A stretch of DNA of 64,000 nucleotides from Paramacrobiotus metropolitanus. Taxonomy: Eukaryota; Tardigrada; Eutardigrada; Parachela; Macrobiotidae. Location of the stretch: assembly GCF_019649055.1 (NCBI RefSeq), contig NW_026570242.1, forward strand, positions 496,001 through 560,000, in the 5' to 3' direction. Position 1 is the first letter of the stretch. Each line of letters begins with the position of its first letter. Positions 7,046 through 59,945 of this stretch are shown here, piece by piece. The position numbers and the translations under genes were made by a program. Under the pieces are notes generated by a model. The model ran no database searches. It was not told the origin of the DNA and saw nothing but the letters and a program-made list of their open reading frames with translations.

Positions 7046-7402
7046 CTCTTCGATGCAACATCAAGAAATCTTCTTGAGTGGTCATCTTAGTTCTTGCAAA
7101 TGTCCATACAACTTTTAGGGGTCCAGCTTGTTTTTTTCACAGTTCTACCTGGGACGACACTCTCGGAGCCTTTCTACTATAACCTTGCTCAAGGTCACCA
7201 TAGGAACAGTGCATTTAGTGAATGTAAGACACTACAGAAGGCAAGGTTTCCAATGGAGCGCTGATAAAAATTGTTATCGATGTGTCTGTTGAACCTTCCC
7301 GTAATTATATGAACAAATGAATAATCACGTTTTTCGAAGTTTTTTTACAATTCTGATACAGGATACATTTCGGAACATCCTTCGCTGCGCTCCACACTCG
7401 TA
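7046..7402. promoter_or_regulatory. Short divergent intergenic region, probable shared promoter
   Basis: The region separates the starts of two divergent genes (RING protein on minus, helical protein on plus). I see no clear TATA box at a convincing distance. The promoter call is inferred from layout only. Confidence 0.3.
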
Positions 7403-34214: not shown

Positions 34215-37200
34215 ATAATTCTAATAGATTGTTGTTGTTGTTGTTGTTGCATAAACATACAGCGTAGTCCTTTCGAGGACCATTGCTCCAACAAATATAA
34301 AATTATCAGAATTGCCAAGGGAACAGAGTAAGCATAGACAGTAAAAACTAGTCGCTTATCATTGGATCACCGAAATCTGTTTGAGAACTCCAAAACTTTA
34401 GAAAGCAGCGGCAACAGCCACTTTATGTTAAGGAAACTCAGTCCTGTAAAGCCAGCATGTTCCAGGAAACTTCGCAAAACAGTAAACGAGGGATGCTTAT
34501 AGATAGAACAATGATAGAAAAAGTGGTATGTTGTTTCCGGTGCAAAACCACAAGAGCACAAAGATGGATTCCCATATATCTGAGAAGGTCGGGACGCGTT
34601 AAGTCTAGAATGGTCCATTCGAAGTTGGGTCAGAAGTCCCTGCATTTTTCGTGTGACCGGTACTGGCTTTCTCCATATCGAGTAAGACACATTCGGTTGG
34701 ACATTGTAGAGAGCTCTCCCTTTTTGAGATGCTGACCAATTTTTCTGCCATTCGGCAGAAATTGTAGTGCTTAATAGTTGTCTAAACGACGCTTTTGACA
34801 ACGGCAGTTGCAAACCTCCGTTTTCCGGTAAATGCGCTCCTTGTTTTGCCGCCAAATCTGCCATTTCATTTCCATAAATACCAATATGAGCTGGGATCCA
34901 CTGAAGGGTTACTTCAACACCGCGCGAAAGCAACCACAGCAGACAGTCCTGTACTTCTTTGATGTCTTTGTTAGGCGAACCATAAATAGTGGCACTGATA
35001 CCATCCAATACAGCTTTCGAGTCAGAATATAGAAAAGCACGACGCACTTCCGACTGCCCCATGTACAGCAAAGCTTGATGGACTGCATACAATTCCGCTT
35101 GCGCAACAGTTGCGTGAGCCGGTAGTCGGTATTCTTTCCGGTACACTGCTTGGCCAGTAAAAACAACAACAGCAGCTCCAACATTATCGCCTTGTTTTGA
35201 TCCATCGGTATAAATTAACATATGTCCTGTAGAGAGGAGACGCTTGGCAGCTATATGGTGATTCACGGCTGATGCTTGCAGTGCTGAAATGATGACCCTG
35301 GAGCGCAAAGACGCGTAGACGTAGGGAAGAACTTGCTGTACACTAAAAACAACATTGGTAGGAAACTTCAACCCCATCGCATCCAGGCGCTGCACAATGT
35401 ACGACGATGGAGATTTGTGCAAGTGTTGTTGTTCAGGGTATTGTACCAAAGCATGTGCTATGTTCATATCTTTCAGTGTTTGTAAGCGATAGAGGGACAT
35501 CGCAGCCACTTCAAGAAGATGTAAGTTCATTGGAGTTAACTGGGCTTCGACGTCTAATGCGACAGTAGGAGATGTGTTTTGGGCTCCGGTAATAAGCACT
35601 GCAGCCAGCCGTTGAACTTTGTTGATTTTGGCAGATAGTGACTTCCCAATTCCACACCAAGCGACTGCAGCATAAGTGAGAACAGGACGGACAGCACCAA
35701 TGTAATACCGGCGCATGATGTGGTAGTTGACACCCCAGTATTTCTTGCAAATGGGTCGAAGTTTACTGAGCCGGCCATACGCGTTCTGGGTTGCGCGAGC
35801 AACCTGATGTGTCCAAGTTAGCTGGGGATCGAACACTATTCCCAGGTATTTCAGCTTATCCACAGGATGAACTGTATGTTGACCGAATAATACAGGAGAC
35901 TGCGTCGGAACATTTCTTTTACATGTAAAGTGCATCAGTTCGGTTTTGTCAAATGCAAACGGCATTTCGGCTTCAATAGACCATTCTGCATTCTCAACAA
36001 GTAGACCATTAATCCGGGAACAATTATCTGTTATAGAGGGCGATCGGACTAGTACCATTAGATCGTCTGCGTATGCTTGTCCCATGAATCCGGTGTATTC
36101 ATTAAACTTCTTTAAAAGGTCATCAATGAAAATAATAAACAGCAGTGGGGAGAGCGGAGAACCTTGAGGAACACTACGGGTTAAATAAAACTGATCTCCT
36201 TGGCCGCTTTGACTAACGGCTTTGATGGTTCTGTGTAGCAGAAAACTTCGCATCCACTTCACGATCCAGAACGGGCACCCGAGAGCTTTTAACCGGTTCA
36301 GCAGTAGAGAATGTGAAACGTTATCGTACGCACCCAGTAAATCCAGCGTCACCATCGATGTTGCTTCTTTTCTTCTGAATCCTTCCTTAATGAAGTCAAC
36401 TGCACTTAACAAAGCATCCGCGGTGCCATGAGCCGGTCTGAAGCCAAACTGCCGTTTGTGTATCCAGCCGTTAGTCAAACCATAGAAGTGTATTCGCGAT
36501 ATCATAAGCTTTTCCAGTTGTTTCCCCAAAACCGAAAGCAGTGTAATTGGTCGTAATGCATTGTGCTTGAATAAGTCGGGCGTCCAGGCTTACGTATAAT
36601 GGAGACATTACCGCATCGCCACGGTTTAGGAAAGTGACCAAGTGTCAAGGAAGCGTTAAATATTCGCAAAAGTAGCGGTAAAAGAATAGGCAGCAGTTTC
36701 TGAATTAATGACATCTGGATTCCATCTGGTCCTGGTGCACGGTGCGATGGAGCCGATGTTATAGACTGTGTAAGTTCAGCTTCTGTAATAAGAACAGTGC
36801 CGTCAGGTAGCGATTGAAAATCGTTTGTCTCTGTAACTTCCGGAATATCCGATGGGAGTGGAGACGCTTTGAGCAGATCCGTAGCGAAGTAGTTTAGTTT
36901 TTCTTTTTCAACGGACAGCGTTGCACCTTTGCCAGTAACAATTTCGTCGATTCCTCCATTTTCCCGAGGGTTGCAATGCCGGTTATAGGCCTGCCATGCT
37001 TGTTCAGGAGACATTTTTCCTAGATTTTCTCGAAAATATCGACGTTTTGCGCTCTTAACTGCATTTTTAAATTCTGCCCGGATACGCTTGTAGTTAATCC
37101 AGTTCTCTAGGGTGTTTCTAAGTCTCCAAATTCTGAAGAACCGGAACATCTTTTGTCGCTTTGTGCTGAGATTAATGCTCCACCATGGCGTTGCTACCTG

Positions 37201-37972
37201 ACGGTTTCTAGAAAGGGGAACGTGTAGCGTGATGCCGTAATTCAATCCATTGTGTAATTGCTCTGTCAATGCATCCAAATCTGACGGCGTTTCACAGTCC
37301 GCTGCCAACAATTCATCAACCATGTCCGAGGTGTACAGTTGAAAGCCTGTCCAATCCGCTCTTCTATAGTTGAGTCTTTTGCGTGAAGAAGTGCCGACAC
37401 CGATGTCGCAAAGTGACAAGAGAACTGGTAAATGGTCGGATCCTGTAAGCCAGTTAGCTTCGGCTTTAACTGCGCAGTCAATTGTTGCTGATAGATCGTT
37501 GTCAGTCCAAACCAAATCGATCACAGAATACCCTCCTACTGCATTTATAAACGTGGACACAAATGGTGGACTGCGCAGCTGCAAATTCCGCTTCAGCATA
37601 GCTTCTACCAAAAGGTCACCATAATTGTCAGCTCTCGTATCCCAAATTGTATGATGTGCATTGAAGTCTCCACAGACCACAGCTTTGAAGCCTTGAGTTT
37701 TGTCATGCAAAGTGTTGAGCAGGGCGGTAAAAGTATTGTAGTTTGTCGAAGGTGGACGATAAACGGAAGCGAAAGCCACACGACCAGCAGTGGTTATGAC
37801 TGAAGCAATACACAAGTTATCTTCATGATGAAGCAGCAAAGGTTGCACGGAAAAACTGAGTTTCGAGAAATAAGTAGCTGCAGAACTGGGTTCATTAGGC
37901 GGAAATCTCCACCACTGGGAAAGGGTGACGGGGTTAGTTACTGCCTTCAAGGTGACCGTGAAAGACTTCTAA
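34215..37972 (-). mobile_element. 5'-truncated non-LTR retrotransposon (endonuclease, reverse transcriptase, RNase H)
   Basis: Reading on the minus strand, 37950-36502 encodes the end of an APE-type endonuclease (VCGDFNAHH, later GSDHLPVLL) and the start of the reverse transcriptase. 36529-34367 encodes the rest: FGFRPAHGTADA, PQGSPLSPLLF, the YADD active site, and an RNase H domain (YTDGS, AELYAV, SDSKAV). A one-base-type frame break near 36510-36590 separates the two parts. The N-terminal endonuclease motifs are missing, so the copy is 5' truncated near 37970. The 3' end carries a (CAA)7 tail. A 10-bp direct repeat AACATTGTTG at 34205-34214 and 37973-37982 may be the target duplication. RNase H places it in the I/R1/Jockey-like assemblage. 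Defective copy. Confidence 0.9.
34229..34249. repeat. (TTG)7 microsatellite, 3' tail of the LINE
   Basis: Seven TTG units on the plus strand are (CAA)n at the 3' end of the minus-strand LINE. Short simple-sequence tails are usual for I-type LINEs. Confidence 0.8.
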
Positions 37973-41109: not shown

Positions 41110-44097
41110 GTATCCCCCCATTTCGGCCGCCGGACATTTCGGCTGTTTCGGCTGCCTGACATTTGGGCCGCAGGACAGTTCGGCCGCCTGACAATTCGGC
41201 CGCCGGCATTTTATACCGGCCGGCTTCTTGGCTACCGCTTATACTGACTGGTCTCTAACACTTATTATTAATTTGTTATCAATAACTCCGTAGGTACGTA
41301 CGAACATAACGGCGGCTACCTCTTCCGAAATTTAGTACGGATTATCAACATATGCTAGGATGGTTTTACTTAACAGGCAAATGATGAATCTAGATACGAT
41401 TAAATTAATTAACAGCTGAACAGCAATTAACAAAGAAATAAATTAAACGAACTCACAAGCATAAGAAATAACCAAAACAAAAATAAATAAAAATGACCAA
41501 AAATGTTGATGTCAGTTACCAAATTGTTAGTGTTTTAGTATAATAGTAATGAGTACTCATTTACGTATACAGTTCAGTTATTCTGATTTCAACCAGATTT
41601 TACAACAAAATTTCCAAATTAATCGCAACTGATCTGAGGTAACTGATTGCATCCATCTGCCCGTAGCTGGACGCTACTTTCTTGAGCCGTTTGGTGACCT
41701 CCATGTACTTCTTTTTCTGCTTCGGCTCGGCACCAACCATACGTGCAGCGGCTTCCGTTTGCTGGTGGACAATTTCCCGGCACAGCAAATTAAAAAACTG
41801 ATATATGCCGGGGTGGTCCTTATTGACAGCGTCAGCAAATGTGCGATGCCATGCTTCCAACCGATTAGTTGTACGGTGAATGTCGTTCGCAAGTCTGTCC
41901 GAGCAACTCCAAAATTCGACCGGATACAGCGGCTTCATGGCAATGCATCTGTTTCCTGCAAATACGTTTCGGCCAGTATACGTCGTCCATAAGTATTCAA
42001 TGAAAGCGTCATTCTGCTTGAATGGGAAGTCCGGTGAATTTAGAAGTTCGGCAAGCACTCGGTGGACGTCATTTACAGGCACAAATGCGAGAGCGAACAC
42101 CATACGGCATGACATGCTGAACTCGGAATTAGTTGCATACATGGGTCCATGTCCTAAGCTGACAAGCTTCCGGTACAGACTCTGCCCGAAACGAAAATTG
42201 CACCCTGAAAATATTTCCTTATCAAAATTATGATTAACTGTCACGTTCGAAAGTATGAAGAAAACATGAAATGCTGAAAGAAAGTGTACTAATCAATTAT
42301 GCATCAAATTGGACTGGAATAATAAATTGTTTAATTTAATAGCCTATTAAGTAAAATTTATTACTGATGATAATTATTAATGCTAATGAAAATGGAAAGT
42401 ATCATTATTTAATAAATTTAACTTAAGTTATTATTGTTAATATCAGTTATAAATGTTTAATTGTCATTTGATTAACAGTGTTTTTGTTAACAATAATGTT
42501 TTTCATTATAATAATATTTTTTTCAAATATTTCAAAAAATAACAAACAAATAATACGAAATAGCAACAGTTTAAATGGGGACAATTAAATTTTATTTCAT
42601 TAACATTAAGACAAAACATTTTAAAAGTTATTACTTGAAAACTCAAGACTTAATACCAGCTTAATAACAGTATTACAAAATGGATTTCAATGTCACCTCT
42701 CAGTTTTGCCGTGGGAAAAACTTTGCGAAACGCAATAATTGAGGACTGCTCGAAATCCATCACCATGTATTCCGGCCCAACATCCACAGACTGATTTTTT
42801 TGCATCAGTTCATCGCGAATTAATGTAAAAAGGCGGCGGTAGGTGAGCTCAGACTTATTTGGCAACAGTGCGAATATAAGGGGAGCCGTTGCACCACAAA
42901 TGTCGCCATGCACCGTGTACAGCTGAGTAAAAATGGGCGGACTAACGCTGAATGTGCCGTCGCTGAGCCAAACATTTGTTCGCGCAAGGTATTCAAAACA
43001 CTTGGGATCCCCAAAAACAATAATGCGGAACGGATCTTCTGCGCCAGTATCAGCAATCAAGATGGACTCCTTTCGCGCGGTCTCTTTTAAAAAATAGGTT
43101 CCATCAATATCAGCCAGACAGTTTACTTTGGTTGTGGGAACATTTTCAGCCTGTCTTTGGCGCCCAGTGGTTCGGGCAAGGGCGTCGTAAGATGGCATTG
43201 TCACTGCAGCACTGATGGGAATTTCAGCCCGCACTTCGTCAATCACCTGGCGAGGACGTTCCAGTGTTCGCAGCTCGCTCCTTCACCACCGCTCTAGCCG
43301 TATTGGCCGTAACCTTAATGATGTCCGGGGCATGTGAATGTTGGCCACGCTCAACCGCTTTGCCATTACTGTAATGCAGTCGTGCACTGCAGCGGTCCTT
43401 CTCACGACAACGCCAGATCGTACAGTCTTTGGTTTTATCTCCTCCACGGTTCCAGGCTGTGATGTACTCATAACCGTTAAAATTTAACACTGTGCCCTTA
43501 CGATTGGTAGTCGAAAAGGTTACTTGGGCCATAATCTAACGAAGAGTTGGAACAACTCAATAACCAGAACTGGATCAGCAAAAAAATTGAAACAACCAAC
43601 TGCCACGGTTTAGAATGCAAAATGCAATCAAGCAAATGTGCGTTCCATTTGCTTAGGATGCTGCTATTGTATAATCGAATCCATGCACATTAAGCACACA
43701 GATACTGCTATACTACTGTATACTACTCGTAATATCCGCTCATTTTCGAATCTGCTGCGCATCTGTACAGTACGTAATGCATATTTCGAATCTACCGCAC
43801 TGTTTGCACATGTGCTGATCTGCATAATATAAATTTAAGTTCTGTACCATTGTACACGTATTGTAATTAAAATATTAATTGTAATCGTATTGTAATCTTA
43901 ATTAATGTGTTGTGCGGTGAACTTGCTGTATGTAAAGTGCCATATTGATGGCGCAAACATATTAAAATTAATAATCTGTAGTTTGATTTGAGGTTAATTT
44001 TTATCGAAATGTTGCTGACAGTCTCAGATTAGTCAGACTGTCAGGCAGCCGAAAACTCAAGCAGCCGAAGTGTCAGGCAGCCGAAATGGCAGGATAC
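41110..44097. mobile_element. MULE DNA transposon with tandem-repeat terminal inverted repeats
   Basis: The outer ends are inverted (left GTATCCCCCCATTTCGGCC; right, inverted, GTATCCTGCCATTTCGGCT). They continue inward as degenerate ~20-bp tandem repeats of the type GGCCGCCTGACATTTC: ~125 bp on the left (41110-41235) and ~80 bp on the right (44020-44097). The element contains one transposase gene (41600-43532, minus). I could not find a convincing 8-11 bp target duplication at these borders, so the true ends may be slightly different or eroded. Confidence 0.75.
41600..43532 (-). CDS. MULE transposase with N-terminal FLYWCH zinc finger
   Basis: Residues 1-75 (from 43532) form a FLYWCH finger (YEYITAWNR...CTIWRCREKDRCSARLHY...HSH). 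The MULE catalytic domain follows: VWLSDGTFSV supplies the first Asp and YMVMDFEQS the second. After a 492-bp, very AT-rich GT-AG intron (42696-42205, phase 1 on both sides), TTNRLEAWHRTF supplies the Glu. The joined exons read smoothly (KLRG|CNFRFG). A one-base frameshift near 43260 separates the FLYWCH part from the catalytic part: the preferred frame ...ERPRQVIDEVRAEIP is one base off. The copy is therefore probably inactive unless the base is an assembly error. Confidence 0.85.
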
Positions 44098-44905: not shown

Positions 44906-47900
44906 TTTTATGCGGTGAAAAATCGAAAGTATTTCATACATCGTAGGGAGCAAAATTCGCAGTTATTTGAAAAGCTTCTTCTGGAATAGCAAAAAATACT
45001 ATATGCAGACAGCCGGTTTACTTCTTGTGTAGAAATACTACTGTAAATTGTAAAAACAATTGTTTGAGCGCTTCTTGAAAGTACATATTATGAGTATGTC
45101 AATTTTTGTCAGTATCTGTACAGTATAAGGTCTTAATATATAATATAGTGGTTTTCTCTGCTTTTCATGCTTCCAGCGTTGCGTATCAAGCAGCAAAAAA
45201 TGGTACGGTATAATAGAAATAAGGCGATTACTGAATTATCAGATGTATTGTAGGTTAAGTGCGTACATATGATCAGTTCATTCTTACTTGAGTTATTCTG
45301 CTTCTGATAAAAGCTGAAAACAAAGGTTCTCTATGGCGTACACTTGTTCTCCGGAACTTTTTAGAATTTTCACATCGAAATACCAGTTATTACTTGTCTT
45401 CCTCGATTTACCTGTTATGGTATTCAAGTTTATGCAGCAAAAAGAAATTGTAATACAAGAAAGCCAAAGTAAGTGTACATAGCTAGTTAATATGCGACAA
45501 AGTAGGTTACCAACCCAAAAAGCAAGGAAATCAACTGTGACAAACAACGTACGCGAAAAAGCGGCAACGTAAGTGACCTCACAAGAAACAAGGAAATTAA
45601 TTATGACCACAATGTACGCTGCAAAGCAGTTGAACAAACTAAAGCAACAAAGTTAACTGTTGTCAAATAGCTCTCCGCGAAACTCTACGATAGCTTTCAG
45701 TTCCTCTGGTGTAAAACGCACTGTTTCGTCCAGCTGATTTGCGAATGGCAGGGAAAACTTTGGGTGCCGCTTTTGAATGCAGGAAACTTTCAAACAGTAC
45801 TTCCGACTTTTGGGCTGCTTAATGATAGCTTTGCTGCCACTCCCGCTGACATAGTCCAATTCTTTTCGCATAATTATCAGATTTTGTTTTGGAGGATTGT
45901 CGATAAACTTCTGGCGGCAACCAGGACAAACGGTATTTTCGTGAATGGAGTTATCTCTGGTTATGATGAAAGGCTGGTCACCCATTTGCCATGGCTTCAG
46001 TTTTCTTCCGGTAATAGCAGCGCAACATGGACACGGTCCTACGAGAATGGTAAATTGGTGAAAAAATTAACGGAAAAATGAATAATAACTAATATTCATT
46101 TGAACTTAGCGGTGCGTCCTTAAAATTAAAACGTAGAGTAAAATATAAAGAAACGCTTATAATTTTTCGCATATTTCTGGAGAATAATACCATAGTCGTT
46201 ACTCTGGTTGCGAAAGGCAGGTGCTGAGTAGCTTGAATTAAACAACTATTACTAATAATTAAATAACAGAATTTAGTTTCTTAGCTAATGGTTGATTGAA
46301 CAATTAAACGTGTTGCGAAAAGGCTCACCTGGTGACCTTTCTCTTTTAAGCTTTTGCTCAGCAGCTTCCAGTTCTTGCAGTTGAGGATGCTGCAACATTT
46401 AAATTAAATTACTAGATTTCAAAAGTGAAGCAGTCTGCAAGTTAGTATTTTAGCGCGATTAGTGTACCCCGCCGCTGTATTATTTTTCCTATTTTGGATA
46501 GAAGTATACAATAAAATACCATGCAATTTGTTAGAACAGCTTTGATATTCATTGCATATTACTCGCATGTATACTGGTATTACGGGTTAACCACGCTAGA
46601 ATAAATACGGCACGATAACTGCGCAAATACCATGAAGTAAGTTCGCGCGTCATACTAAGCTTACCGATCCGGAAGTAGCTCGCACACTGGATAGTTTCAC
46701 TCGCTTCGCCTGACCGCTTTCATTGTCCTAATGAGCAAAACAGCAGTATGCGATAAAAAAGAAGCATTTGTAAGAACAACATAATTTTTTTAAAAATACC
46801 AACCGGTTTATCAGCCAACCGTGTATTGAACATTCGCACTTGTCTGTCGTCATCATCAGCATCCACCACAACACTCTGTAAGTAAAAACTTGGTTTGTTA
46901 TTCATATATCAGATATGCCGCCGACATAATTTTCGTACACTTGACGAGCAAGGGTGATCTGGTTTCCGTGGAAGATTCTCGACAGCAACCAGCCCGGACC
47001 GCATTGTTGCTCCTTGAGACAACTTTCTGTCACCTTTACGCTTGTCACCACCTTTTCTACCCTTTCCTTCCAATGTCGGGCCTATAACTTTTGGAAATGC
47101 CGGCAAACTATCTCTTAAATTAGCTAAGAATTCCGGCATTCGCTGTTTCAAATGCGCAACTGACATTATATCCGCGCAAAATTGCTTAGCTTTGAACGTG
47201 GAGCAGCTGCACTCTGCCCGATCATTCTCCATCCACTTAACACGGTGAAACCCGCCGCTTCGGTCTTCAGCCAGGAATATGTTGACTCCCATTTTTGACG
47301 GAGCAGCCTGTACCTTTCCGCCGCTGATTAGCTCGGTAGGTGAGCGCCAGTATTGTTTAAAGTCTACCGACAGATGTGACTCTTCGAAGGACGTTTGCAG
47401 TTTAACAGGTTCAGGTTTTCCATTTCCCAACGCAGTACGACGGTCAAGCAAAGGGTCTGACTTAATGTCCCCACCAAACAATGAACGTAAGACTGTCCGA
47501 TACTTGTGGTCGTCGTATAAGATGTCAAGCGAACACTGACGAAAGGGCGCTGTGTCTGATAAGATCAACTCACCGCTACCTACAAAAAGCATGATTGTAT
47601 GCTCGTTAGGTTGAACTCGTAACTCGCAATTCAGTAGCTAAATGAATAGTCATCATCTTTGCCTGGAAATTCTCCAATCTAATTTTAACTGAATAGCAGT
47701 CAGAATCTTTTAAATGTGGAGGTGGTTACAGCTGGTTGAAATTTTTTGTTGCTGCATTCCAAAGTCTGGTGCTCCTTTAAAAATTTTACCAAGGATGCCG
47801 ATCATAACGTAGACTTTACAATACTCTCCCATAACTTTCATCGAATTAACACCGCAACAAAATTAATACAAATTCACCTGTTACTGCAAAGTTCAAACTC

Positions 47901-49659
47901 CCTTCTCCGGCGCGCCACATCACATTAGTTACGTTCAAGATACATTTCACACGGCTGATGCAACCAAATATCGAGTTAAATGCTGAAGTATCGACATAAA
48001 TTAACACAACTTTTCTCTTTTATGATTTAGCTTGAATTTTGAGAGGACTAAGCACTCGTAACATGGTGCGCTGATGTTAGTCAAGTTTAAAGAAAGACAA
48101 GTTGTCCAAATTTGGTCTACCCGGCACAGTTCTCAGAGGACTGTATTTATCATTGTGGTACAGTACTTATATAAGTAATGACGGCAGTGCAGTGGCAGTC
48201 GGTCAAAGCGAAACTTTCGCGATAAATACGACGTACGTGTTGTCTGTACATTTACAAAAGAAATTGCGGGACAAGCTTGTACCAGACTGGTAAGGTGATT
48301 TTACCTACTGTGTAGTGCGCACTTACAGATACATGACGTGAAGTATAGCATTCCTTGGACTTTACAGGAGGTTAATCATTACTACTACAGTGAGTACGCG
48401 TTAAATTAAACTTAAATCATATCTTCTTTGCTTGTGATGAGGTACTGTAAGAACATAAAATTTTTTAAGTATAAACTTTTTTATCGGTGACCCGATATAT
48501 ATAGCCTCATGCACATACCTATGATTGCTTCCGCAATGTATTTGTCCTGCCGGCTCACTAACGATTTCGCTTGCTGTATAACGTCGATCAAAGACACCTT
48601 TCCGTTAGCAGTTGTCCGGAGTTTGTGCTTAAATTCAAAGTTTGCAGTTTCTGCGACGTTATTTGTGACGTGGTCTTCTCCAAATCCTGCCGCTTGTCGC
48701 ACAGGCAAAATTCCTCTTTTGGCAAATTCATCTCGTTTGTTTTTCAGATAGTATTCCGCAATTCCAGGGTCCAACTCGTTCAGCTTCTCGTTCAGAAAAC
48801 CGAATGTTTCATCAAGCTCTTGCACCGACGCGGAGTCGATTAGTCCTTTGCAATACTCAGCAGAACTGATATCGGCATTCCCGAAAAAAATACTGATGAC
48901 CTTCTTCACAGCGCTCTCGTCAAGCTTTAGAGTGTACTTCATGTGCCTCTTAAAATTATCCTTCATATGCAGAAAGCACGACAACAACTTGGCTTTTGGC
49001 AGCAAAGTGGTAATGGCTTTCCGCTGAGCGGCGTCACAATCCGTAACAATAGTTGGTGTCCATTCGGTAAAATTGGTTTTGCTTTCGTCACACACGTACT
49101 GATAACGTTCGAGGATACTGTATAAGCCCGCTTGAAATTCTGGGGCTGTAAGGCCCGTTAAAACAGCAACACCAATCAAAATGACCGCTCTTCCGGCCGC
49201 TCTCATTTTAGATGTGCGTGAAAGCTGCTTAGTGGCACACATTGTGTCTTTTCTGCGAAGATATGGATGTTGAATGGCAATTGTCATCACGTAGAATTCA
49301 CCAATGTCATGCACGACGTCGATATACATGGGGCTGAACACGGCATTATTTCCTTTGTATCCTAAAAATGAGTCAGTGGTTTTTTTATAAATATCTTTGG
49401 TCGTTAATTAAAACTACTTCCTCTAACATCCGTGAAACTGGTATAAAGTACAATAACTAACTGCATTGTCCACAACACGGCCACTGTGCAGTGCAGATGT
49501 TTCGCAAATCAACTTTCTCTTGCATTGTACACGGTCCTTCAAAGAGGTTTTACGCTTTTATACAACTACAAAACGAGCGGAGCCAGGCACGTCATGTTTT
49601 CAGGCACCCACTTCCGGCTGGTCATCGGGCGTAAATTATAAAAATAAGGGTGACTGCTA

Positions 49660-49999
49660 TGCGCCCCTACAAACCGGACGCATAGGATTTGGCTATGCGC
49701 CCTGATGTCCGGGAGCACAGAATTTGGCTGTGTCCGGGCGTACAGAATTTGGGCACATCTCTACGACACACCCTGATGGCTTTTCTCGGCTGGACACTAC
49801 TCTAGTCAACCAAGTCGTCCAGCTTTGAACTTCCTCCGCTGCGTTAACCGGAATTAGCATTTCTGAATCTACTGAAACAGATAAACATAAAAATGTTGAT
49901 ATTTCTGTGTCAGGATATTCGGGGAGCAGGGCCAAATTCGGTGCGCCGGAACACTCGGGCGCATAACTGAACTCTGTGCGCCCGGTTTGTCGGGGCTCA
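49660..49999. mobile_element. Small foldback element inside a transposase intron
   Basis: Left bases TG-CGCCCCTACAAACCGG and right bases (inverted) TG-AGCCCCGACAAACCGG match. Both sides continue inward as degenerate ~25-bp repeats of CCGGGCGCACAGAATTTGGC type in opposite orientation. It lies wholly in the 50316-49362 intron of the MULE/SWIM gene. No clear target duplication found. Confidence 0.55.
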
Positions 50000-50881
50000 C
50001 AGCCATTTCGAAAATTACATTCTGCCGACCTGTTCTCTCTCAGAAACCGCAACGCCGCAGCTGTTTCCACTTATTCGCACTTGTCCACAAACGAGCAAAG
50101 ATACCGCGGCGAACCGAATTAAACTGGCGTTAAAAAAGAACGGCGAGTATTGATTGTGACTATTAAATGTCCTGGGCCGAAAGTACCACCTTTTTGAAGC
50201 CCACTGTAGTTTGCTCATTTGCTGTGGCTTTGTGAATATGGTCAAATTTGTTTCAAACAAACAGGCGCACTCACTAAAAGGGTATAACGTTATGTGCTTT
50301 AAAATCTTACTCTTACCCGAAAGAGCAAATGTCTTCGCAAGTAGTGCTTGAGACTGTGAATAGACGACTGGAATGAGGTGTTTTCTTCCGTCGTTTCGAT
50401 TCTTGCAACGGATCATAGTGCAATGGAAATACACGTCAGCTTCAAGACACAGCTTTGTCATGATGTCTGCCATCTCCGATTTCTTGCTTGTAATCTTGGC
50501 CCGCTTGACCTGCCGTTTGTCACGCGGTAGTGACAAAGGGTTGCAACTTCCCTGTATGGCAGCTTGTGTTGATACCTCTACGATTTCCTCCACAGCCAAG
50601 CGCTTTTGTCCGGAAACATTTTCTTCGATGATTCTCCGTGACAGCCCTGTTGTGCCGTTGAACGGCAAGTCATTCATGGAGTTGCCGTGGGCAGGAACCA
50701 TGAATGGTTTTGGCTGACAATCTTTATCCCACCGGTAATCCACGACGGCAAGCCGATTTTGCGTATTGATGTAGAGCGTTTTTTTAAACGACTCGCATGT
50801 TTCATTGTAGAAGTACAGTGTTTTGACGCCGTTCACAGGTCCAAATCGACCGTTATATTTCCAAACGCCAGCGCCATCAGG

Positions 50882-50891
50882 TCGCAGTTCG
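50882..50891. repeat. 10-bp target-site duplication, left copy
   Basis: TCGCAGTTCG, identical to 59317-59326 and in the same orientation. It borders the 8.4-kb element. On the minus strand it ends exactly at the codon boundary Glu-Leu-Arg in both exon halves. Confidence 0.85.
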
Positions 50892-50991
50892 CATAGAATG
50901 TCCAAGTTAGGACATTAAGTGGTTCCATAGGAATGAACCCATAGGCTAGGACACTAGTGGTTCACCAGGTTCTGAACCAATGGAATAAGAT

Positions 50992-52600
50992 AAACCTATG
51001 GCACCACATGGAACCACCGTAAAACTACAAGTGAACCAGGTATACTCCTACATGCCGACACGCTGTCACACTACCGCTTTACCCCTTGAACCAGGTGAAC
51101 CTATGGAACCACATGGAACCTCCGTGAAACCAAAAGTGAACCAAGTACACTCTCACTTGCTCACACGCTGTCACACTACCGCTCTGCCCCTTGAACCAGG
51201 TGAACCTATCGAACCACTTGGAACCTCGTGGAACCACAAGTGAACCAAGTACACACTCACTTGCTCACACGCTGTCACACTACCGCTCTGCCCCTTGAAC
51301 CAGGTGAACCTATGGAACCACATGGAACCTCCGTGGAACCACAAGTGAACCAAGTACACTCTCACTTGCTCACACCCTGTCACACTGCCGCTCTGCCCCT
51401 TGAACCAGTTGAACCTATGGAACCACATGGAACCTCCGTGGAACCACAAGTGAACCAAGTACACTCTCACTTGCTCTCACGCTGTCACACTACCGCTCTG
51501 CCCCTTGAACCAGGTGAACCTATGGAACCACATGGAACCTCCGTGGAACCACAAGTGAACCAAGTACACTCTCACTTGCTCACACCCTGTCACACTGCCG
51601 CTCTGCCCCTTGAACCAGTTGAACCTATGGAACCACATGGAACCTCCGTGGAACCACAAGTGAACCAAGTACACTCTCACTTGCTCACACCCTGTCACAC
51701 TGCCGCTCTGCCCCTTGAACCAGTTGAACCTATGGAACCACATGGAACCTCCGTGGAACCACAAGTGAACCAAGTACACACTCACTTGCTCACACGCTGT
51801 CACACTACCGCTCTGCCCCTTGAACCAGGTGAACCTATGGAACCACATGGAACCTCCGTGGAACCACAAGTGAACCAAGTACACTCTCACTTGCTCACAC
51901 CCTGTCACACTGCCGCTCTGCCCCTTGAACCAGTTGAACCTATGGAACCACATGGAACCTCCGTGGAACCACAAGTGAACCAAGTACACTCTCACTTGCT
52001 CTCACGCTGTCACACTACCGCTCTGCCCCTTGAACCAGGTGAACCTATGAAACCACATGGAACCTCCGTGGGACCACAAGTGAACCAAGTACACTCTCAC
52101 TTGCTCACACCCTGTCACACTGCCGCTCTGCCCCTTGAACCAGTTGAACCTATGGAACCACATGGAACCTCCGTGGAACCACAAGTGAACCAAGTACACT
52201 CTCACTTGCTCTCACGCTGTCACACTACCGCTCTGCCCCTTGAACCAGGTGAACCTATGAAACCACATGGAACCTCCGTGGGACCACAAGTGAACCAAGT
52301 ACACTCTCACTTGCTCACACCCTGTCACACTGCCGCTCTGCCCCTTGAACCAGTTGAACCTATGGAACCACATGGAACCTCCGTGGAACCACAAGTGAAC
52401 CAAGTACACTCTCACTTGCTCACACGCTGTCACACTACCGCTCTACCCCTTGAACCAGGTGAACCTATGGAACTACATGGAACCTCCGTGGAACCACAAG
52501 TGAACCAAGTACACGCTCACTTGCTCACACGCTGTCACACTACCGCTCTACTCTTTGAACCAGATGAACCTATAGCAAATGGAACCACCGTGAAACCGCA
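50992..52600. repeat. Left minisatellite arm, ~15 copies of a 105-bp unit
   Basis: The unit (plus strand) contains GAACCTATGGAACCACATGG, AACCTCCGTGGAACCACAAG, AACCAAGTACACTCTCACTT and GCTCACACGCTGTCACACTA. It has an internal GGAACCAC sub-repeat. Two unit types (…CGCTGTCACACTACC… and …CCCTGTCACACTGCC…) alternate. Because 105 is a multiple of three, a 466-codon frame stays open across the array; this is likely a by-product rather than a gene. Confidence 0.95.
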
Positions 52601-54280
52601 TGTTTGCCACGGGCAGCTCACATACTGAAAAGCCATAGAATGTGAGAAGCTGTACAAGACAATCACCGTCTATGATCAGGAAAACTTTCCTAACGTTATT
52701 TTTTTGCAGTATTTAGGTTTTTATCAATGAAATAACAAAGCGATGACATAAAAAGACGAAACAAAGACAAAAGACAAAAAGGCATATAAAGTCATAAGGA
52801 GCATATAAAAAACATTGGAAAATCATAAACAGAAAGTAACGAAAACTAGACCCACAATTGTTGAAGGCCAAACAAGTGGTGGCCGTATTGAGTGCTAGCC
52901 ACAGTGACTATTAAGCGGAATGAACAGCGTCGGTGCTGATCGCATATGATTCAAATTTAACTCGGCCGAAATGATTTTAGCTTTCTTAGGTTTCTTTGGT
53001 TTCTTAGGTTTTCTTAAGTTTTTTAGGTTTTCTTAGGATTCTTAGTTTTTTTAGGGTTTCTTAGGTTTTCTGGTCGTCGCCCTCGTAACGGTCGACGAAG
53101 TGCGGTCGACACTATGTCGATCGACGACTCGACGTAGTGTCAGATCGACGAAATGTCGGTGAGCCATATAGGACACCTACCACATAAATTTGACCGTGTT
53201 GGTCTGCATAAACTACTTTATTACATTAAATAAAATAAATCCTTCAGCTCCTGCTGGGATTTATTACTTAACTACCGTACTGCTTCATTAAAATTTTTTT
53301 CCTCTGAGAAATCATGAAAAATGAGATGAATCTGGAAAAACAAGTACAAACTGGATGTGTCAAATTCGTTTAGGGCGAACTGTCTCTTGTGTTAAAACGT
53401 CGCAAAGGCTTTCTGCCTTTAAGCAAAATGTCCCAAACCGAAGTGCCCTAGCGTCCGATTGTCCCCGCGATATGTTTTCGCGGCGCAAAGAAGGCGTCGA
53501 ATTTAATTGCGTCGAAATATCCGGGTGTTTAAAAATACGTTTCCGTACATAGAAAAAATGAAAAAATTAATGTGAGACATGAAGGAGGAACAAACAGGTA
53601 CTGTTAAAAATGCTGATCGCGCCGTCAAATCTCGGGATTCCAGCCGCAGCCAGTCCGTTTCAGTTGTTCAAGTAGCCGCCCGCTAAAGCGGCGGTTTAAT
53701 CGGCCCTGTATTCTGTATATTGATACACATAGTGCAGCCGTTCCAAATAATGGTTAATTCGAGGTATCGTGTTTGCCGATCATTTTTTGCATCCTGTATA
53801 CCTTACGGGACGATAATGCATCGTCGGTTCTTGTGCACCACAGAAAAAGTGCCGCTAACGCTTATACTTGAACAGACTAAAATTAACGGAAAATTGTAAA
53901 AGTGGCATCAGCTGTTTCCGATTTGTATTGTTTGCACTTGTTTACGTCGCAATAAGCAAAAAATGTTCTGCAGTACAAAAAGGCGAAATGCATCGAGAAT
54001 TGGCGGAACAGCGGGATGCAGCGAGTGGCGACGGAAATGGCTTCAGTGTGTCTAGGTCATCGAGTGGTATGATGTGTTTTGTTTTCGCGTTTCTTTAAGA
54101 CTATCATAGACTTCGGTTACATTAGTGCCTTCGGTGCACTTGATCACACGGTTCCTATTAAGTAAATTTATTGTATTGCTGGGTTATACTCAGTATCGGA
54201 AATTATTTTATTTGCTTTTGACGAATTTTTTGACGAATTGTGCTAACTAAATTTAAGCGTACTGTTTCGGTATTGCAAAT
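52601..54280. other. Centre of the composite element, left part: simple and degenerate repeats
   Basis: 52979-53065 is a degenerate (TTTTCTTAGG)n run. 53080-53160 contains GTCGACGAAGTG/GTCGACACTATGTC-type repeats. 53370-53520 contains diverged GTCGCAAAG/GTCCCGAAGTG-type motifs, reminiscent of the tandem ends of the foldback element at 10267. These could be the remains of another nested foldback element. Confidence 0.45.
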
Positions 54281-54577
54281 GTGGAACGCACCGTCCAAAC
54301 CATGAAGCGTCGCATCGGCGATACCAGGGATAAATTATCGCCTATCGCGGAGCCAAAAGCTCTTCGCTGCGCCGTGGTAACCTGCGATAAGTCATTGGAT
54401 GAAACCCAGCAGAACCAGGCCTGGATTAAATGTACGCGCTGCTTGCACTCCTTCCATCTTCAGTGTGCTAGTGTGTCAACGATCGCTCTTGGAACGCGGC
54501 GAGGGGCTGTCTCTAATACGTGGATGTGCCGATACTGTGCTAAGCAAGCTCGTCCTTCCAAAAAACCACGCAAATAA
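54281..54577 (+). CDS. Small PHD-finger protein inside the composite element
   Basis: 98 codons (ATG 54281). The ligand pattern CAVVTCDKS ... WIKCTRC ... FHLQC ... WMCRYC is a full PHD-type zinc finger (C4-H-C3), followed by a basic tail (RPSKKPRK). PHD fingers bind histone tails in host proteins. They also occur at the N-terminus of ORF1 proteins in some CR1-like LINEs. As the only recognisable protein in the element, it is either cargo, a retrotransposon fragment, or part of a longer spliced gene. An upstream frame at 53868-54098 might be an earlier exon, but I see no proof. Confidence 0.6.
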   Translation: MERTVQTMKRRIGDTRDKLSPIAEPKALRCAVVTCDKSLDETQQNQAWIKCTRCLHSFHLQCASVSTIALGTRRGAVSNTWMCRYCAKQARPSKKPRK

Positions 54578-55815
54578 GCAAACTGCTGAGCGTTGATTGG
54601 TCGCCCATAAAGAAGGAAGCCCAGCTTGTGAATCATTTTTGCTTTTGTTTTCCGCTCTCAAGCACTCTGTGTGTGCCATGTTTTCTTTCGAATTCAGCAT
54701 TTACCTAATCCATGATGCCTGTCGAAGTCCCTTGGTTCCAGAAGAGAATCCGTTTTTTTTTTATTCTTTGAAGCATATTAGCAGCTCTCTCTTAAGTGTT
54801 GCATACATTAGGCTGCTAGCTGTAAACCGCTTACGTTCTTTGAAAAAAAAATTTTTTGTAACGTTTTGTGGTTGCACAAAACTGACGTATTATGGAAGAC
54901 AAACGCTGTCGTCCTGTTTTAGTATACTGGATTATCCCAACATTTTGTGGCGCATGACAAGTTTAGTAACAGCAATAAAACTATTTTCAGCAATTGAGCA
55001 TTCCATTCTATATCAAATGATTCTATGTGGCTCACTTGTAGCCGGCAGAAAGGTGGACTGGCTCACGGCTTTTTGGCAAACCTCTTTGCCGGCAAAGGTT
55101 TGTTAAGTTATTTGGCGGGCAAAATGGATCACATCTATCCGTTAAGTGCTTCGTCAGCGCCAATCGCGGTAAACTTGAGCATTTACAGACTTGCTTTTAA
55201 AATACTGTATGTCCGAGTGTCCGATTCTGAATAATACCATGGTATCGGGGACGGCCACCGCCGGCAACACGCAATGTGTTTAATATCAATAACGGAAATG
55301 CAGTACCACCACGTTGGTACCACTGTGCAATGCCACAAAACTTCTACGATCAGCTGTTGCTCTATAGCTTAGCACTAGCAGCGCCGACCGTTAGACTACC
55401 GCGAGAACGGGTGGCCATTGCGCAACGCTTAAAAAAACTGTTGTGGTGTAATTATTATTTTGGATACGTACAGATATGAACGATTTTTCAGTAAATGGTG
55501 AGTACATTGCGGTAGCGTAACCACCTTTATTTAAACCTAAACTCAAAAACATCTTTCATTTTCACAAGCTGCATTTTGCCTGTTCTATATGAAACACGGG
55601 TTTACGAACGTGCGCCTGGGTGCCAGAAATGTGAGCCCTCCTGTCCGGCACCAAGGTTCACGAACACGTTGCCCATTTTCGCTTAATCAGACAATTTAAA
55701 TAAACTTATTACACACCACGGAATAATTACATGTATGAGCGATTTGAAACGAGATGTTCGTTTCGGATTAATAAGACATTTTACTACTGTACGAGGCAAG
55801 TGTTCCTTAGATTAA

Positions 55816-56487
55816 GGGAAGTGGCCCGGTACATGGTACCAAATTCGTGTACATGCACGGAAACTTTCATTCTCGCGCACTCCCAAACACATTTTTGTTT
55901 CGTTTTATGGCATTCTGTAGCCAGATGATTTGTATACACAGGCCTGAAAACCGTTTGCGCGCGCAACATCAGGTTCGCGAGTTACGGCTGTTAGAAAATT
56001 CCAAAAAGTTTAAATGCATTCAGTTGTACCAAAAGTCTCATTATGGACCGATCTATTTCAGATTTTGCACGTAAATGCACATAACCACGAAGAACGTTTT
56101 TACCCCGATCCACTGTTCTAGCATGTTTTTCAAATTTTAAAATGAATTTCAAAAATTTGAAATTCATTTTAAAATTTGAAAAAAATCGTGGAAGTCTGGA
56201 TCGGTGTAAAAACGATCTTCATGGCCATTTACATGCAAAATTTAAAGGAGATCGGTCCATAATGAGACTTTTGGCACACCTGAAAGCATTTAAACTTTTG
56301 GGAATTTTCTTACAGCCATAACTCCCGAACCGGATGTTGCGCGCACAAACGGTTTTCACACCAGTGTATACAAATCATCTGGCTACAGAATGCCATAAAA
56401 CGAAACAAAAATGTGTTTGGGAGTGCGCGAGAATGAAAGTTTCCGTGCATGTACACGAATTTGGTACCATGTACCGGGCCACTTCCC
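55816..56487. mobile_element. 672-bp palindromic MITE with TTAA target duplication
   Basis: The whole element is one long inverted repeat centred near 56150, where ATTTTAAAATGAATTTC meets its complement. It begins GGGAAGTGGCCCGGTACATG and is flanked by TTAA at 55812-55815 and 56488-56491. TTAA duplication is typical of piggyBac and Kolobok elements. No coding capacity; non-autonomous. A diverged half copy lies near 61560-61910. Confidence 0.8.
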
Positions 56488-56608
56488 TTAATAGACGCTT
56501 TTCTCCTTACCATAGATTGACAATCTAGACCGCATTGTGCGAACCGCATTGTGCGAAGTAACTTCAACCGAACCTCCAAACTATCATTCGAAATGATCGA
56601 ATAAAATC

Positions 56609-56793
56609 TTGGTACCTAGCAATTAAGTTTTCATGGCAAGCAAAGAAAGTTTGAACCTTTGTGGTTCCTCGTAGACATAGCATAAAGCTCGTGCAATAAG
56701 CCGTTGAAGAGGATCCTATGCTATGTCTACGAGAAACCACAAATGTTCAGAACTTTCTGTGTTTGCCATCAAACCTTCTTTGCTAGGTACCAA
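56609..56793. repeat. 185-bp palindrome
   Basis: Ends TTGGTACCTAGCAA and TTGCTAGGTACCAA are exact inverted copies. Inside, CTCGTAGACATAGCATA pairs with TATGCTATGTCTACGAG around a ~30-base loop. Probably a small hairpin MITE within the composite element. Confidence 0.7.
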
Positions 56794-56849
56794 AAAATTC
56801 CCAGGTTTTCTTACAGTATTTGAAATGCTAGTTTGTAGCTGTGATTAAA

Positions 56850-59275
56850 GCAGGTGAAAGTGTACTTGGTTCACTTGTGGTTCCATAGGTTCACCTGGTT
56901 CAAGGGGTAGAGCGGTGAGCAAGTGAGAGTGTACTTGGTTCACTTGTGGTTCCACGGAGGTTCCATGTGGTTCCATAGGTTCACCTGGTTCAAGTGGCAG
57001 AGCGGTAGTGTGACAGCGTGTGAGCAAGTGAGTGTGTACTTGGTTCACTCGTGGTTCCACGGTGGTTCCATGTGGTTCCATAGGTTCACCTGGTTCAAGG
57101 GGTAGAGCGGTAGTGTGACACGTGTGAGCAGGTGAAAGTGTACTTGGTTTACTTGTGGTTCTACGGAGGTTCCATGTGGTTCCATAGGTTCACCTGGTTC
57201 AAGGGGTAGAGCGGTAGTGTGACAGCGTGTGAGCAAGTGAGAGTGTACTTGGTTCACTTGTGGTTCCACGGAGGTTCCATGTGGTTCCATGGGTTCACCT
57301 GGTTCAAGTGGCAGAGCGGTAGTATGACAGCGTGTGAGCAAGTGAGTGTGTACTTGGTTCACTTATGGTTCCATGGTGGTTCCATGTGGTTCCATAGGTT
57401 CACCTGGTTCAAGGGGTAGAGCGGTAGTGTGACACGTGTGAGCAGGTGAAAGTGTACTTGGTTTACTTGTGGTTCTACGGAGGTTCCATGTGGTTCCATA
57501 GGTTCACCTGGTTCAAGGGGTAGAGCGGTAGTGTGACAGCGTGTGAGCAAGTGAGAGTGTACTTGGTTCACTTGTGGTTCCACGGAGGTTCCATGTGGTT
57601 CCATGGGTTCACCTGGTTCAAGTGGCAGAGCGGTAGTATGACAGCGTGTGAGCAAGTGAGAGTGTACTTGGTTCACTTATGGTTCCATGGTGGTTCCATG
57701 TGGTTCCATAGGTTCACCTGGTTCAAGGGGTAGAGCGGTAGTATGACAGCGTGTGAGCAAGTGAGAGTGTACTTGGTTCACCTGTGGTTCCACGGAGGTT
57801 CCATGTGGTTCCATAGGTTCACCTGGTTCAAGTAGCAGAGCGGTAGTGTGACAGCGTGTGAGCAAGTGAGTGTGTACTTCGTTCACTCGTGGTTCCACGG
57901 TGGTTCCATGTGGTTCCATAGGTTCACCTGGTTCAAGGGGTAGAGCGGCAGTGTGACAGCGTGTGAGCAAGTGAAAGTGTACTTGGTTTACTTCTGGTTC
58001 CACGGTGGTTCCATGTGGTTCCATAGGTTCACCTGGTTCAAGGGGTAGAGCGGTAGTGTGACACGTGTGAGCAGGTGAAAGTGTACTTGGTTTACTTGTG
58101 GTTCCACGGAGGTTCCATGTGGTTCCATAGGTTCACCTGGTTCCAGGGGTAGAGCGGTAGTGTGACAGCGTGTGAGCAAGTGAGAGTGTACTTGGTTCAC
58201 TTGTGGTTCCACGGAGGTTCCATGTGGTTCCATAGGTTCACCTGGTTCAAGGGGTAGAGCGGTAGTATGACAGCGTGTGAGCAAGTGAGTGTGTACTTGG
58301 TTCACTTGTGGTTCCACGGAGGTTCCATGTGGTTCCATAGGTTCACCTGGTTCAAGGGGTAGAGCGGTAGTGTGACAGCGTGTGAGCAAGTGAGAGTGTA
58401 CTTGGTTCACTTGTGGTTCCACGGAGGTTCCATGTGGTTCCATGGGTTCACCTGGTTCAAGTGGCAGAGCGGTAGTATGACAGCGTGTGAGCAAGTGAGT
58501 GTGTACTTGGTTCACTTATGGTTCCATGGTGGTTCCATGTGGTTCCATAGGTTCACCTGGTTCAAGGGGTAGAGCGGTAGTGTGACACGTGTGAGCAGGT
58601 GAAAGTGTACTTGGTTTACTTGTGGTTCTACGGAGGTTCCATGTGGTTCCATAGGTTCACCTGGTTCAAGTGGCAGAGCGGTAGTATGACAGCGTGTGAG
58701 CAAGTGAGTGTGTACTTGGTTCACTTGTGGTTCCACGGAGGTTCCATGTGGTTCCATAGGTTCACCTGGTTCAAGGGGCAGAGCGGTAGTGTGACAGCGT
58801 GAGGGCAAGTGAGAGTGTACTTGGTTCACTTGTGGTTCCACGGAGGTTCCATGTGGTTCCATAGGTTCAACTGGTTCAAGGGGCAGAGCGGCAGTGTGAC
58901 AGGGTGTGAGCAAGTGAGAGTGTACTTGGTTCACTTGTGGTTCCACGGAGGTTCCATGTGGTTCCATAGGTTCACCTGGTTCAAGGGGCAGAGCGGTAGT
59001 GTGACAGCGTGTGAGCAAGTGAGTGTGTACTTGGTTCACTTGTGGTTCCACGGAGGTTCCATGTGGTTCCATAGGTTCACCTCGTTCAAGGGGCAGAGCG
59101 GTAGTGTGACAGCGTGTGAGCAAGTGAGTGTGTACTTGGTTCACTTGTGGTTCCACGGAGGTTCCATGTGGTTCCATAGGTTCACCTGGTTCAAGGGGTA
59201 AAGCGGTAGTGTGACAGCGTGTGAGCAAGTGAGTGTGTACTTGGTTCACTTGTGGTTCCACGGTGGTACCATGTG
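56850..59275. repeat. Right minisatellite arm, ~23 copies of the 105-bp unit, inverted
   Basis: Same unit as the left arm on the opposite strand (GGTTCCACGGAGGTTCCATG, TGGTTCCATAGGTTCACCTG on plus). Parts show a higher-order repeat: 57045-57358 and 57359-57672 are near-identical 314-bp trimers, and a further related block lies at ~57988-58515. Occasional one-base losses (GTGACACGTGTG for GTGACAGCGTGTG) break the reading frame, so no continuous protein is conserved. Confidence 0.95.
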
Positions 59276-59316
59276 GTTCTGAACCAATCCACTAATGTCC
59301 TAACTTGGACATTCTC

Positions 59317-59326
59317 TCGCAGTTCG
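59317..59326. repeat. 10-bp target-site duplication, right copy
   Basis: TCGCAGTTCG, matching 50882-50891. It lies immediately outside the right edge of the composite element. Confidence 0.85.
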
Positions 59327-59945
59327 GGGTGGCTATCCATTTCCCCCAATCGGATTAAAAATATCCCATCTCTTGCATGGTTTTGGAATCCAACAGGAGC
59401 GCGTGGTAGTGGTACCACCAAGCTCGTCTCGTCGTAGTCGTTTTGGATGATGTCCATACAGAACGTTCTACGTTGTTTGGATGTAAGAGCCGGTCTTGGT
59501 TTGTAAAACCACAGCGAACCAAAACTGCAATCGATGAAACTGTATACCGTGGTTGCCGTAATTTGCATTATTGATTCAAAAGCTTCATTTTCCAGAATGT
59601 ATAGAAAAATTTAAATGGGAAATGGCACTAGTCTCAGAAACAGACGGCGTTTTGACATTTCTCGAATGAAACGGATTTCACATTCATACAAAAACTGATT
59701 AACTTTTCTTTTCTAAAACCCGAAAAGTTAGCCCTAATTAGTCAATATTTAGTTTGGGGAAAATGTTGCTAGTGATTCGCACCTTGTCTTAACGAAATCC
59801 TCCTCGTCATCAGCAGCGTCGATTTCCATAACCACCTCCACATCACCATCATCGATTTCGATAGCCGCAAACGGTATTGGTTGCTCACTTCCGCAATTCG
59901 ATGCATGGGAAGCCGAACGATGGTAAATTTGATCTTTGCCATTGT
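59317..59945 (-). pseudogene. 5' part of the interrupted MULE/SWIM gene
   Basis: The exon from ~59577 down to 59317 encodes SIMQITATTVYSF... and ends MDSHPELR exactly at the target duplication. On the far side of the insertion the same frame resumes with PDGAGVWKYN at 50881. Upstream, 59945-59783 encodes an acidic stretch (IEIDDGDVEVVMEIDAADD) followed by a GT donor, and is a probable earlier exon. The phases of these two blocks do not match with the most obvious acceptor, so that junction is unresolved. Confidence 0.65.

Follow-up and report, generated by a model that had tools for sequence, protein, structure and literature searches.

The window, that is, the whole stretch of 64,000 nucleotides of Paramacrobiotus metropolitanus DNA that was analysed, contains a block that is flanked by TCGCAGTTCG at 50882-50891 and again at 59317-59326. 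When its borders are set by the end triplets found throughout the family, CAT at one end and GAG at the other, the element spans 50892-59318 (8,427 bp, CATAG...CTCTC). The target-site duplication is 8 bp, GCAGTTCG, with one copy at 50884-50891 and the second at 59319-59326. The original prediction had given a duplication of 10 bp; TCGCAGTTCG does flank the block, but the element end (GA) is by chance identical to the next target bases (GA), and these two bases are not part of the true duplication. At the CAT end a terminal box (50892-50917, plus strand) contains the palindrome AATGTCC-N6-GGACATT at 50897-50916, and the GAG end has a terminal box at 59293-59318 on the minus strand (GAGAGAATGTCC... 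when read inward).

The predicted minisatellite arms are confirmed as inverted arrays of a 105-bp unit, with 15.1 copies in the left arm (50993-52573, plus strand) and 22.6 in the right (56911-59279, minus strand). A short box is repeated along both arms and points almost only one way in each; the left arm has 85 GAACC vs 3 GGTTC (counted in 50892-52600), the right arm 132 GGTTC vs 1 GAACC (56850-59318). Between the arms there is an inner segment at 52620-52975 (plus strand) that is 97% identical to C260:15944-16299, which in the C260 copy sits between the KDZ (Kyakuja-Dileera-Zisupton) transposase exon and the CAT end. It is followed by an open reading frame (ORF) of 91 codons with a PHD finger (54302-54574, plus strand), conserved in L027, and by a 682-bp palindromic repeat (55812-56493; its two arms are about 300 bp long with 91% complementarity). 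The latter is a small repeat in its own right, nested within the middle part of the element, and similar copies are found in L044.

The element interrupts a gene on the minus strand. The upstream part of this gene (59319-59568) reads ...MDSHPELR up to 59317 and the downstream part (50018-50883) PDGAG... from 50881, and both exon halves are in a single codon register, so that the host frame is intact across the element, as predicted. At C136:86571-87602 (L044) the exon copy is uninterrupted, 98% identical, and has only one GCAGTTCG, i.e., it represents a related empty site. C136 was also considered as the other haplotype, which would make this site allelic; since the window stretches 32300-33500 and 6200-7400 are present only once, C136 is instead taken to be a dispersed paralog. 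Further downstream, the host repeat contains a MULE-transposase-like ORF (48481-49341, minus strand), absent from the C136 copy, whose match to PF10551 is weak (E 1.8e-4, under the curated cut-off). The insertion had been described as lying in an exon, and an exon is indeed interrupted, but it probably belongs to another transposon, a dispersed MULE-like gene. This makes a nested insertion look more plausible than the disruption of an ordinary gene.

The element is one of dozens sharing these ends in the genome. Searching the 170 Mb with up to three mismatches gave 100 matches (48+52) to the terminal 23-mer, which lies in the CAT-end box, and 2 (1+1) to the reversed control; the absence of any second copy of the ends, which would have spoken against the original prediction, is thus not what was found. 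The duplication count, which took in fetched termini only, left out C439 (right flank off the contig), L032 and L035-L037 (one end found) and treated L008 as two elements according to our own pairing, comprised 28 complete elements: the 8-bp duplication is exact in 13, matches at 7/8 in one, appears after filler of at most 10 bp per side in six, and is missing in eight. Among 756 mismatched flank pairs used as control, none reached 7/8 at the exact position and one had an offset 8-mer. The genome-wide search proposed with the original prediction had assumed duplications of 9-10 bp; the exact ones found are of 8 bp. The CAT/GAG pattern of the ends is broken in three of the 28 (L007, L022, and L008a).

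When it comes to the transposase, the element type had been predicted to have none of its own. This applies to the window copy, where no KDZ exon was found in six-frame ORFs using a home-built profile from eight pieces, and which therefore reads as non-autonomous, but not to other copies, which do contain such an exon. The PF18758 cut-off of 26.6 bits is exceeded, if barely, by the sister-family pieces L041 (27.5 bits), L042 (27.6), and L043 (31.2), while a longer L041 ORF falls just under it (26.2 bits). The exon of the window family itself (L017, L038, L039, and L040) gave no match to PF18758, and the KDZ assignment thus runs through the sister families, to whose pieces this exon is 58-61% identical. 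This exon corresponds to the C-terminal part of the domain alone; a complete transposase was not assembled. Each of the five loci whose exon is closest to that of L017 (C43, C7, C57, C260, and C206; 76-100%) contains 105-118-bp arrays, and at four of these loci the fetched stretch includes the 23-bp terminus. Furthermore, 50892-51242 of the window matches the C260 copy at 93% identity, in a part that lies terminal to the KDZ exon there. Among the elements in the set, L017 alone has a KDZ exon as well as both ends and an exact duplication. It served as positive control in a scan for CATAG/CACAG...CTCTC ends with an 8-bp duplication, which recovered the C129 element and found nothing in the C57:506 (L048) and C65 (L049) stretches. 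CATAG...CTCTC ends with exact 8-bp duplications are found in three KDZ families, namely that of the window, that of C130 with C58, and that of C129; all three also have arrays in which the boxes follow one another at about 10 bp.

For the KDZ exons, dN is 0.07-0.10 and dS ranges from 0.6 to saturated (six pairs of four exons). The PHD-finger ORF of the window copy is likewise under purifying selection, with a dN of 0.18 and a dS of 1.4 in one pair (against L027). In one sister family a PHD finger is encoded by a divergent ORF, linked to that of the window at 28-33% identity. Pfam returned nothing useful for the other ORFs located between the arms, and no convincing match for those that precede the PHD exon of the C130 element. 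A Walker-like motif was spotted by eye in the latter.

The two arms of an element evolve in concert. Monomers of the window copy have an identity of 0.930 between left and right, compared with 0.943 and 0.932 within the arms and 0.795 to other elements. Left-right identity exceeded identity to other elements in all five elements with whole monomers, out of 11 tried; the remaining six gave none at the filter used, which is biased toward monomers resembling those of the window. The element middle is found in both orientations relative to the ends. Beside KDZ exons of five families the boxes (GAACC/GGAAC, GAAAC, AACAG, TTGG) are spaced 9-11 or 10 bp apart, a description rather than a blind test since they were chosen by eye from the array units.

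The block is very probably a non-autonomous foldback-type KDZ transposon, assigned at the level of the superfamily. It has the foldback structure of inverted ends made of variable-number tandem repeats around a variable middle, and it agrees with Zisupton in having terminal inverted repeats and a target-site duplication of 8 bp. A KDZ transposase supplied by another copy would recognise the terminal palindromic box together with the boxes that recur in one orientation about every 10 bp (GAACC here), which would offer it a series of binding sites along the same side of the helix. It would then pair the ends (AGAATGTCC), cut the element out, and join it to staggered 8-bp cuts in the target. Unequal exchange may have amplified clusters of boxes into units of 84-118 bp, and pairing of the inverted arms within one element could lead both to arm-to-arm conversion and to a flipped middle. 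A more tentative proposal, which we would not yet call probable, is that the KDZ transposons here share a two-part code. It would consist of fixed asymmetric ends (CATAG/GAGAG plus a small palindrome) and long rows in which a family-specific box recurs in one direction at roughly one per helical turn, where the box varies (GGAAC, GAAAC, AACAG, TTGG) and the 10-bp pitch is kept.

It is also conceivable, though somewhat improbable, that the arms are passive and have expanded by slippage and unequal exchange without any role in transposition. Array length does vary widely, from 2.4 copies in the C260 copy to about 43 in the C24 copy, and no array was detected in the shortest copies, L012 and L031, of which L031 (356 bp) still has an exact duplication. 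However, passive arms sit poorly with the near-uniform direction of the boxes within each arm of the window copy and with the equal spacing of different boxes, albeit picked by eye, beside the KDZ exons of five families.

The reading as a foldback-type KDZ transposon can be compared with known systems. The element family resembles Zisupton in the KDZ transposase, the terminal inverted repeats, and the 8-bp duplications (PMC12730594), but its inverted ends form minisatellite arms of kilobase length in which a box recurs about every 10 bp; there is also a PHD-finger ORF, and the window copy has no transposase exon. Galileo, of the P superfamily in Drosophila, likewise has long inverted ends that contain tandem repeats in variable numbers, proposed as secondary transposase sites, but differs in its P-type transposase and 7-bp duplications, compared with 8 bp here (PMC3573991). 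Tetris of Drosophila virilis is a foldback element with kilobase arms, tandem repeats of about 220 bp and duplications of 8-10 bp, and is apparently non-autonomous; no transposase has been assigned to it, and it is reported from D. virilis and D. americana (PMC4079207). Tm1, a Mutator/Foldback element of root-knot nematodes, also has short asymmetric motifs at its ends that lie beyond the inverted repeat, arrays of motifs (about 14 bp), and middles of different kinds, but its duplications are mostly of 9 bp and its transposase is Phantom-like, of the MULE type (PMC3169594).

A Mutator/MULE-type foldback element, moved by a resident MULE transposase, would be a rival reading; the nematode Tm1 has the same outline, asymmetric ends included. 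Drosophila FB/NOF is a further foldback element of the MULE type. MULE genes are common, with at least 39 PF10551 matches in the genome, one of them in the window, besides the weak one in the host repeat. Nevertheless, a MULE origin is very unlikely and was rejected: none of the 39 matches listed lies between paired ends, KDZ exons are located inside such elements, and each of the 13 exact duplications measures 8 bp, which is inside the range of 8-10 bp given for Tm1 but not its predominant 9 bp. That the block arose by local rearrangement or is an assembly artefact is hardly credible, even if long inverted arrays are difficult to assemble and eight of the 28 copies have no duplication, since 13 exact duplications against none in the 756 control pairs, and the uninterrupted paralogous site on C136, argue for the transposition-type insertion originally proposed.

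Transposases of the P, MULE, and mariner types are already known from elements of foldback build (PMC3169594). The original prediction knew of no named family with exactly this build; none with a KDZ transposase was found described, but Tetris, Galileo, and Tm1 are precedents for the foldback form. The KDZ (Zisupton-type) transposases would thus join the P, MULE, and mariner types as an engine of foldback elements, and the build therefore looks like a convergent solution. Since several KDZ families in one genome have different boxes at equal spacing, the idea that tandem repeats act as repeated transposase sites becomes directly testable. If the two-part code is true, the box and the DNA-binding domain of the transposase would behave as if co-evolving, and conversion between the arms would carry a new box through both ends together. 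The homogenisation of the arms seen within an element is also a way for a transposon to generate and disperse minisatellite DNA.

The window corresponds to C22:496001-560000 in an assembly of 169.8 Mb and 533 contigs. With up to three mismatches allowed, the terminal 23-mer of the element, AGAATGTCCAAGTTAGGACATTA, matches this assembly 48 times in forward and 52 times in reverse orientation, while the reversed 23-mer, which served as control, has one forward and one reverse match at the same limit in the whole genome. This contradicts the possibility that the ends have no second copy. The elements analysed are the head-to-head terminus pairs visible in the list of 23-mer matches. Most of these pairs have arm arrays with periods near 84, 95, 105 or 116-118 bp, and the inverted 105-bp arrays described earlier are present in the window element (50993-52573 and 56911-59279); no arrays were detected in the shortest elements, L012 and L031 (L numbers denote stretches cut from the assembly contigs, which have C numbers). 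Beyond the common 23-mer, 25 of the 28 complete elements have CAT at one end (CAC in two copies) and GAG at the other, the exceptions being L007, L022, and L008a. With these triplets taken as the true ends, an exact duplication, always of 8 bp, is found for 13 of the 28 complete elements, a 7/8 match for one, and an exact 8-mer past filler of up to 10 bases per side for six, while a target duplication is absent in eight. In a control that set each left flank against right flanks from different elements, 0 of 756 combinations reached 7 or 8 matches and one gave an offset 8-mer. The filler between duplication and element end is often CT-rich, for instance CTCTCTCTCG (flanks of L010, L012, L027, L030, and L008), a pattern that copying or slippage of the CTCTC end during insertion might produce.

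Given the CAT and GAG triplets as true ends, the window element spans 50892-59318 (8,427 bp) and is flanked on both sides by GCAGTTCG. The original prediction of a transposition-type insertion is correct, and the ten-base repeat that it described as the duplication exists, but judged by the family's end triplets the true duplication is the 8-bp GCAGTTCG; the surplus TC appears because the GA end of the element meets GA in the target.

The host reading frame is kept across the element, as had been claimed. The upstream and downstream exon halves are 98 and 96% identical at the protein level to C136:86571-86822 and C136:86823-87602, where they are contiguous in one 381-codon frame, and the C136 DNA at the join reads CCCCGAACTGCGACCTG, with a single copy of the 8-mer. 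The DNA flanking the join is 97.8 and 98.5% identical between the window and C136. The similarity is piecewise and covers window positions 63320 down to 44729; apart from the element, four differences interrupt it, among them window 47924-50111, which lacks a counterpart in C136. No second copy of two other window stretches was found in the genome, and C136 is therefore read as a dispersed paralog of a repeat; that it could be an allele of the window site was set aside on the same ground. A downstream ORF of the host repeat (48481-49341) weakly resembles a Mutator-like (MULE) transposase (22.3 bits against a cut-off of 27.6, E 1.8e-4), so the insertion probably hit another transposon. The ORF after it (46909-47592) is SWIM-like by eye alone and has no Pfam match. 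A 682-bp palindromic repeat is nested in the element at 55812-56493, and similar copies are found near the empty site in C136 (L044:1667-2352).

In L030 (C206) and L017 (C43), the space between the arms holds ORFs resembling the transposase of the Kyakuja-Dileera-Zisupton (KDZ) superfamily (PF18758). One L030 ORF matches PF18758 weakly (E 0.0016, 18.6 bits), the L017 ORF does not match it, and no direct Pfam match was obtained for the L017-type KDZ exons. Sister pieces in L041, L042, and L043, which share 58-61% identity with the L017 exon, exceed the PF18758 cut-off of 26.6 bits (27.5, 27.6, and 31.2 bits), while a longer L041 ORF falls under it (26.2 bits). The genome contains three matches with PF18758, 52 with an L030 ORF, and 65 with the L017 ORF. 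All of the top five loci by similarity to the L017 exon (76-100%; C43, C7:798424, C57:312514, C260:15302, and C206) have 105-118-bp arrays, and four of these stretches have the 23-bp terminus, which is missing from the C57 stretch. The C260 copy resembles the window element in two places: its terminal part matches window 50892-51242 at 93% identity, and C260:15944-16299, located between its KDZ exon (15302-15778) and its CAT end near 16660, matches window 52620-52975 at 97%. No KDZ exon was found in the window with a KDZ profile built in this analysis. The element was predicted to have no transposase of its own; by this profile that is true of the copy in the window, but relatives with KDZ exons exist. 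The similarity to C260 on the terminal side of the KDZ exon, together with the KDZ exons of the relatives, points to a derived KDZ transposon, and on these sequence comparisons the most plausible reading of the window element is a derivative whose arrays expanded and whose transposase exon was lost.

Two complete elements of a sister family, C130:24259-34224 (9,966 bp, duplication CGCCAAGT) and C58:864493-874122 (9,630 bp, duplication CATGTTGT), are 96% identical across 8.4 kb and have an 84-bp unit in inverted arrays at both ends. Scanning for such ends paired with a matching 8-mer located a third-family element of 3,993 bp in C129 (L043), with the duplication TCTTTACC and the ends CATAGTATCGCC...GGCGATACTCTC. 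All three families share a CATAG end and an opposite end that reads GAGAG inward.

An array lies within about 0.9 kb of the 3' side of the exon in all 11 fetched KDZ exons (ten loci); these exons are a non-random choice, made by similarity, among the 52 and 65 matches. For comparison, the remaining 55.6 kb of the window contain a single array scoring 300 or more in TRF. Short boxes were chosen visually, not blind, among the array units. The left arm of the window element has 85 GAACC vs. 3 GGTTC, and the right arm is mirrored (132 to 1). Most neighbouring boxes are spaced by 9, 10 or 11 bp, and the clusters that they form are about 55 bp apart. The C130 array has GGAAC with mostly 9-11 bp spacing, and the C129 array GAAAC at 10 bp in 29 of 36 gaps. 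AACAG at the C57:506 locus (L048) and TTGG at the C65 locus (L049) are also spaced by 10 bp (40/54 and 43/46); no element ends were found at these two loci, where the arrays are adjacent and not established arms.

In the five elements that yielded whole monomers, left-right monomer identity within an element is 0.91-0.95, compared to 0.88-0.97 within an arm and 0.80-0.84 to other elements, and some left and right monomers of the window element are identical. In L017, L038, and C130 the KDZ exon points to the CAT end; in L039, the L030 remnant (1418-1843), and C129 it points to the GAG end. With ends matched, L032 has its middle in the opposite orientation to that of L021 and L024, while the orientation is uniform within the groups L005/L010/C24, L006/L019/L025, L023/L028/L029, and L015/L026. 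We infer that the inverted arms of one element exchange with each other, because this would fit both the arm identities and the two orientations of the middle. The element at C24:369003-380456 (L013 and L014, 11.2 kb) has a right array of about 43 copies of 118 bp, and its middle is broken by about 3.4 kb with long ORFs; by eye this insert looks like a non-LTR retrotransposon, and one ORF searched against Pfam gave no match.

The ORF at 54302-54574 in the window element is recognised by PHD finger models (with PF00628, 24.4 bits against a cut-off of 24), and a full relative in L027, which has no stops, is 70% identical to it. The dN of 0.18 and dS of 1.4 between the two point to purifying selection. 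Three of the 11 PHD matches in the genome are in elements of the window family (window, L027, and C7:452750), and the C7 copy, interrupted by stops, is 1.5 kb inward of a terminus (L047). Five matches (C103, C130, C137, C138, and C58) have a KDZ exon in divergent orientation at a distance of about 6.5-8 kb. These KDZ exons are all 59-60% identical to that of L017, and the five pairings are not independent, since the loci may be copies of one sister family. No KDZ-exon neighbour was found among the KDZ matches listed for the PHD matches in C32, C55, and C185. The PHD exon is directed toward the GAG end in C130 and the window, and oppositely in L027. Ahead of it in the C130 element is a run of same-strand ORFs (L041:8076-9001 and L045:1-3023) with no convincing Pfam match; together these ORFs may form a single second gene of the KDZ transposon with several exons.

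The window contains several other repeats. In a MULE-like element at 41121-44093, an ORF (42650-43246) matches PF10551 (E 2e-7) and is flanked by the 16-bp arrays TTCGGCCGCCTGACAA and TGTCAGGCAGCCGAAA in inverted arrangement; this element may also have short repeat arms. The TTAGGTTTC-type array at 52977-53071 resembles dozens of stretches dispersed through the genome, and two long minus-strand ORFs at 34367-37950 are non-LTR retrotransposon-like by eye.

Zisupton is described with 8-bp duplications and two Kyakuja families with 7 bp (PMC12730594). For Zisupton in Pristionchus, inverted repeats are described but no duplication was found (PMC9297572). A tardigrade repeat survey lists Zisupton (PMC11071193). 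Foldback-type elements, which have long inverted ends of tandem repeats around a variable middle, include Tetris (PMC4079207) and Galileo (PMC3573991), and the Tm1 paper states that the transposases differ among such elements (PMC3169594). In the open-access literature searched, minisatellite arms were not found on any KDZ element. The element in the window is a foldback-type, non-autonomous KDZ transposon.
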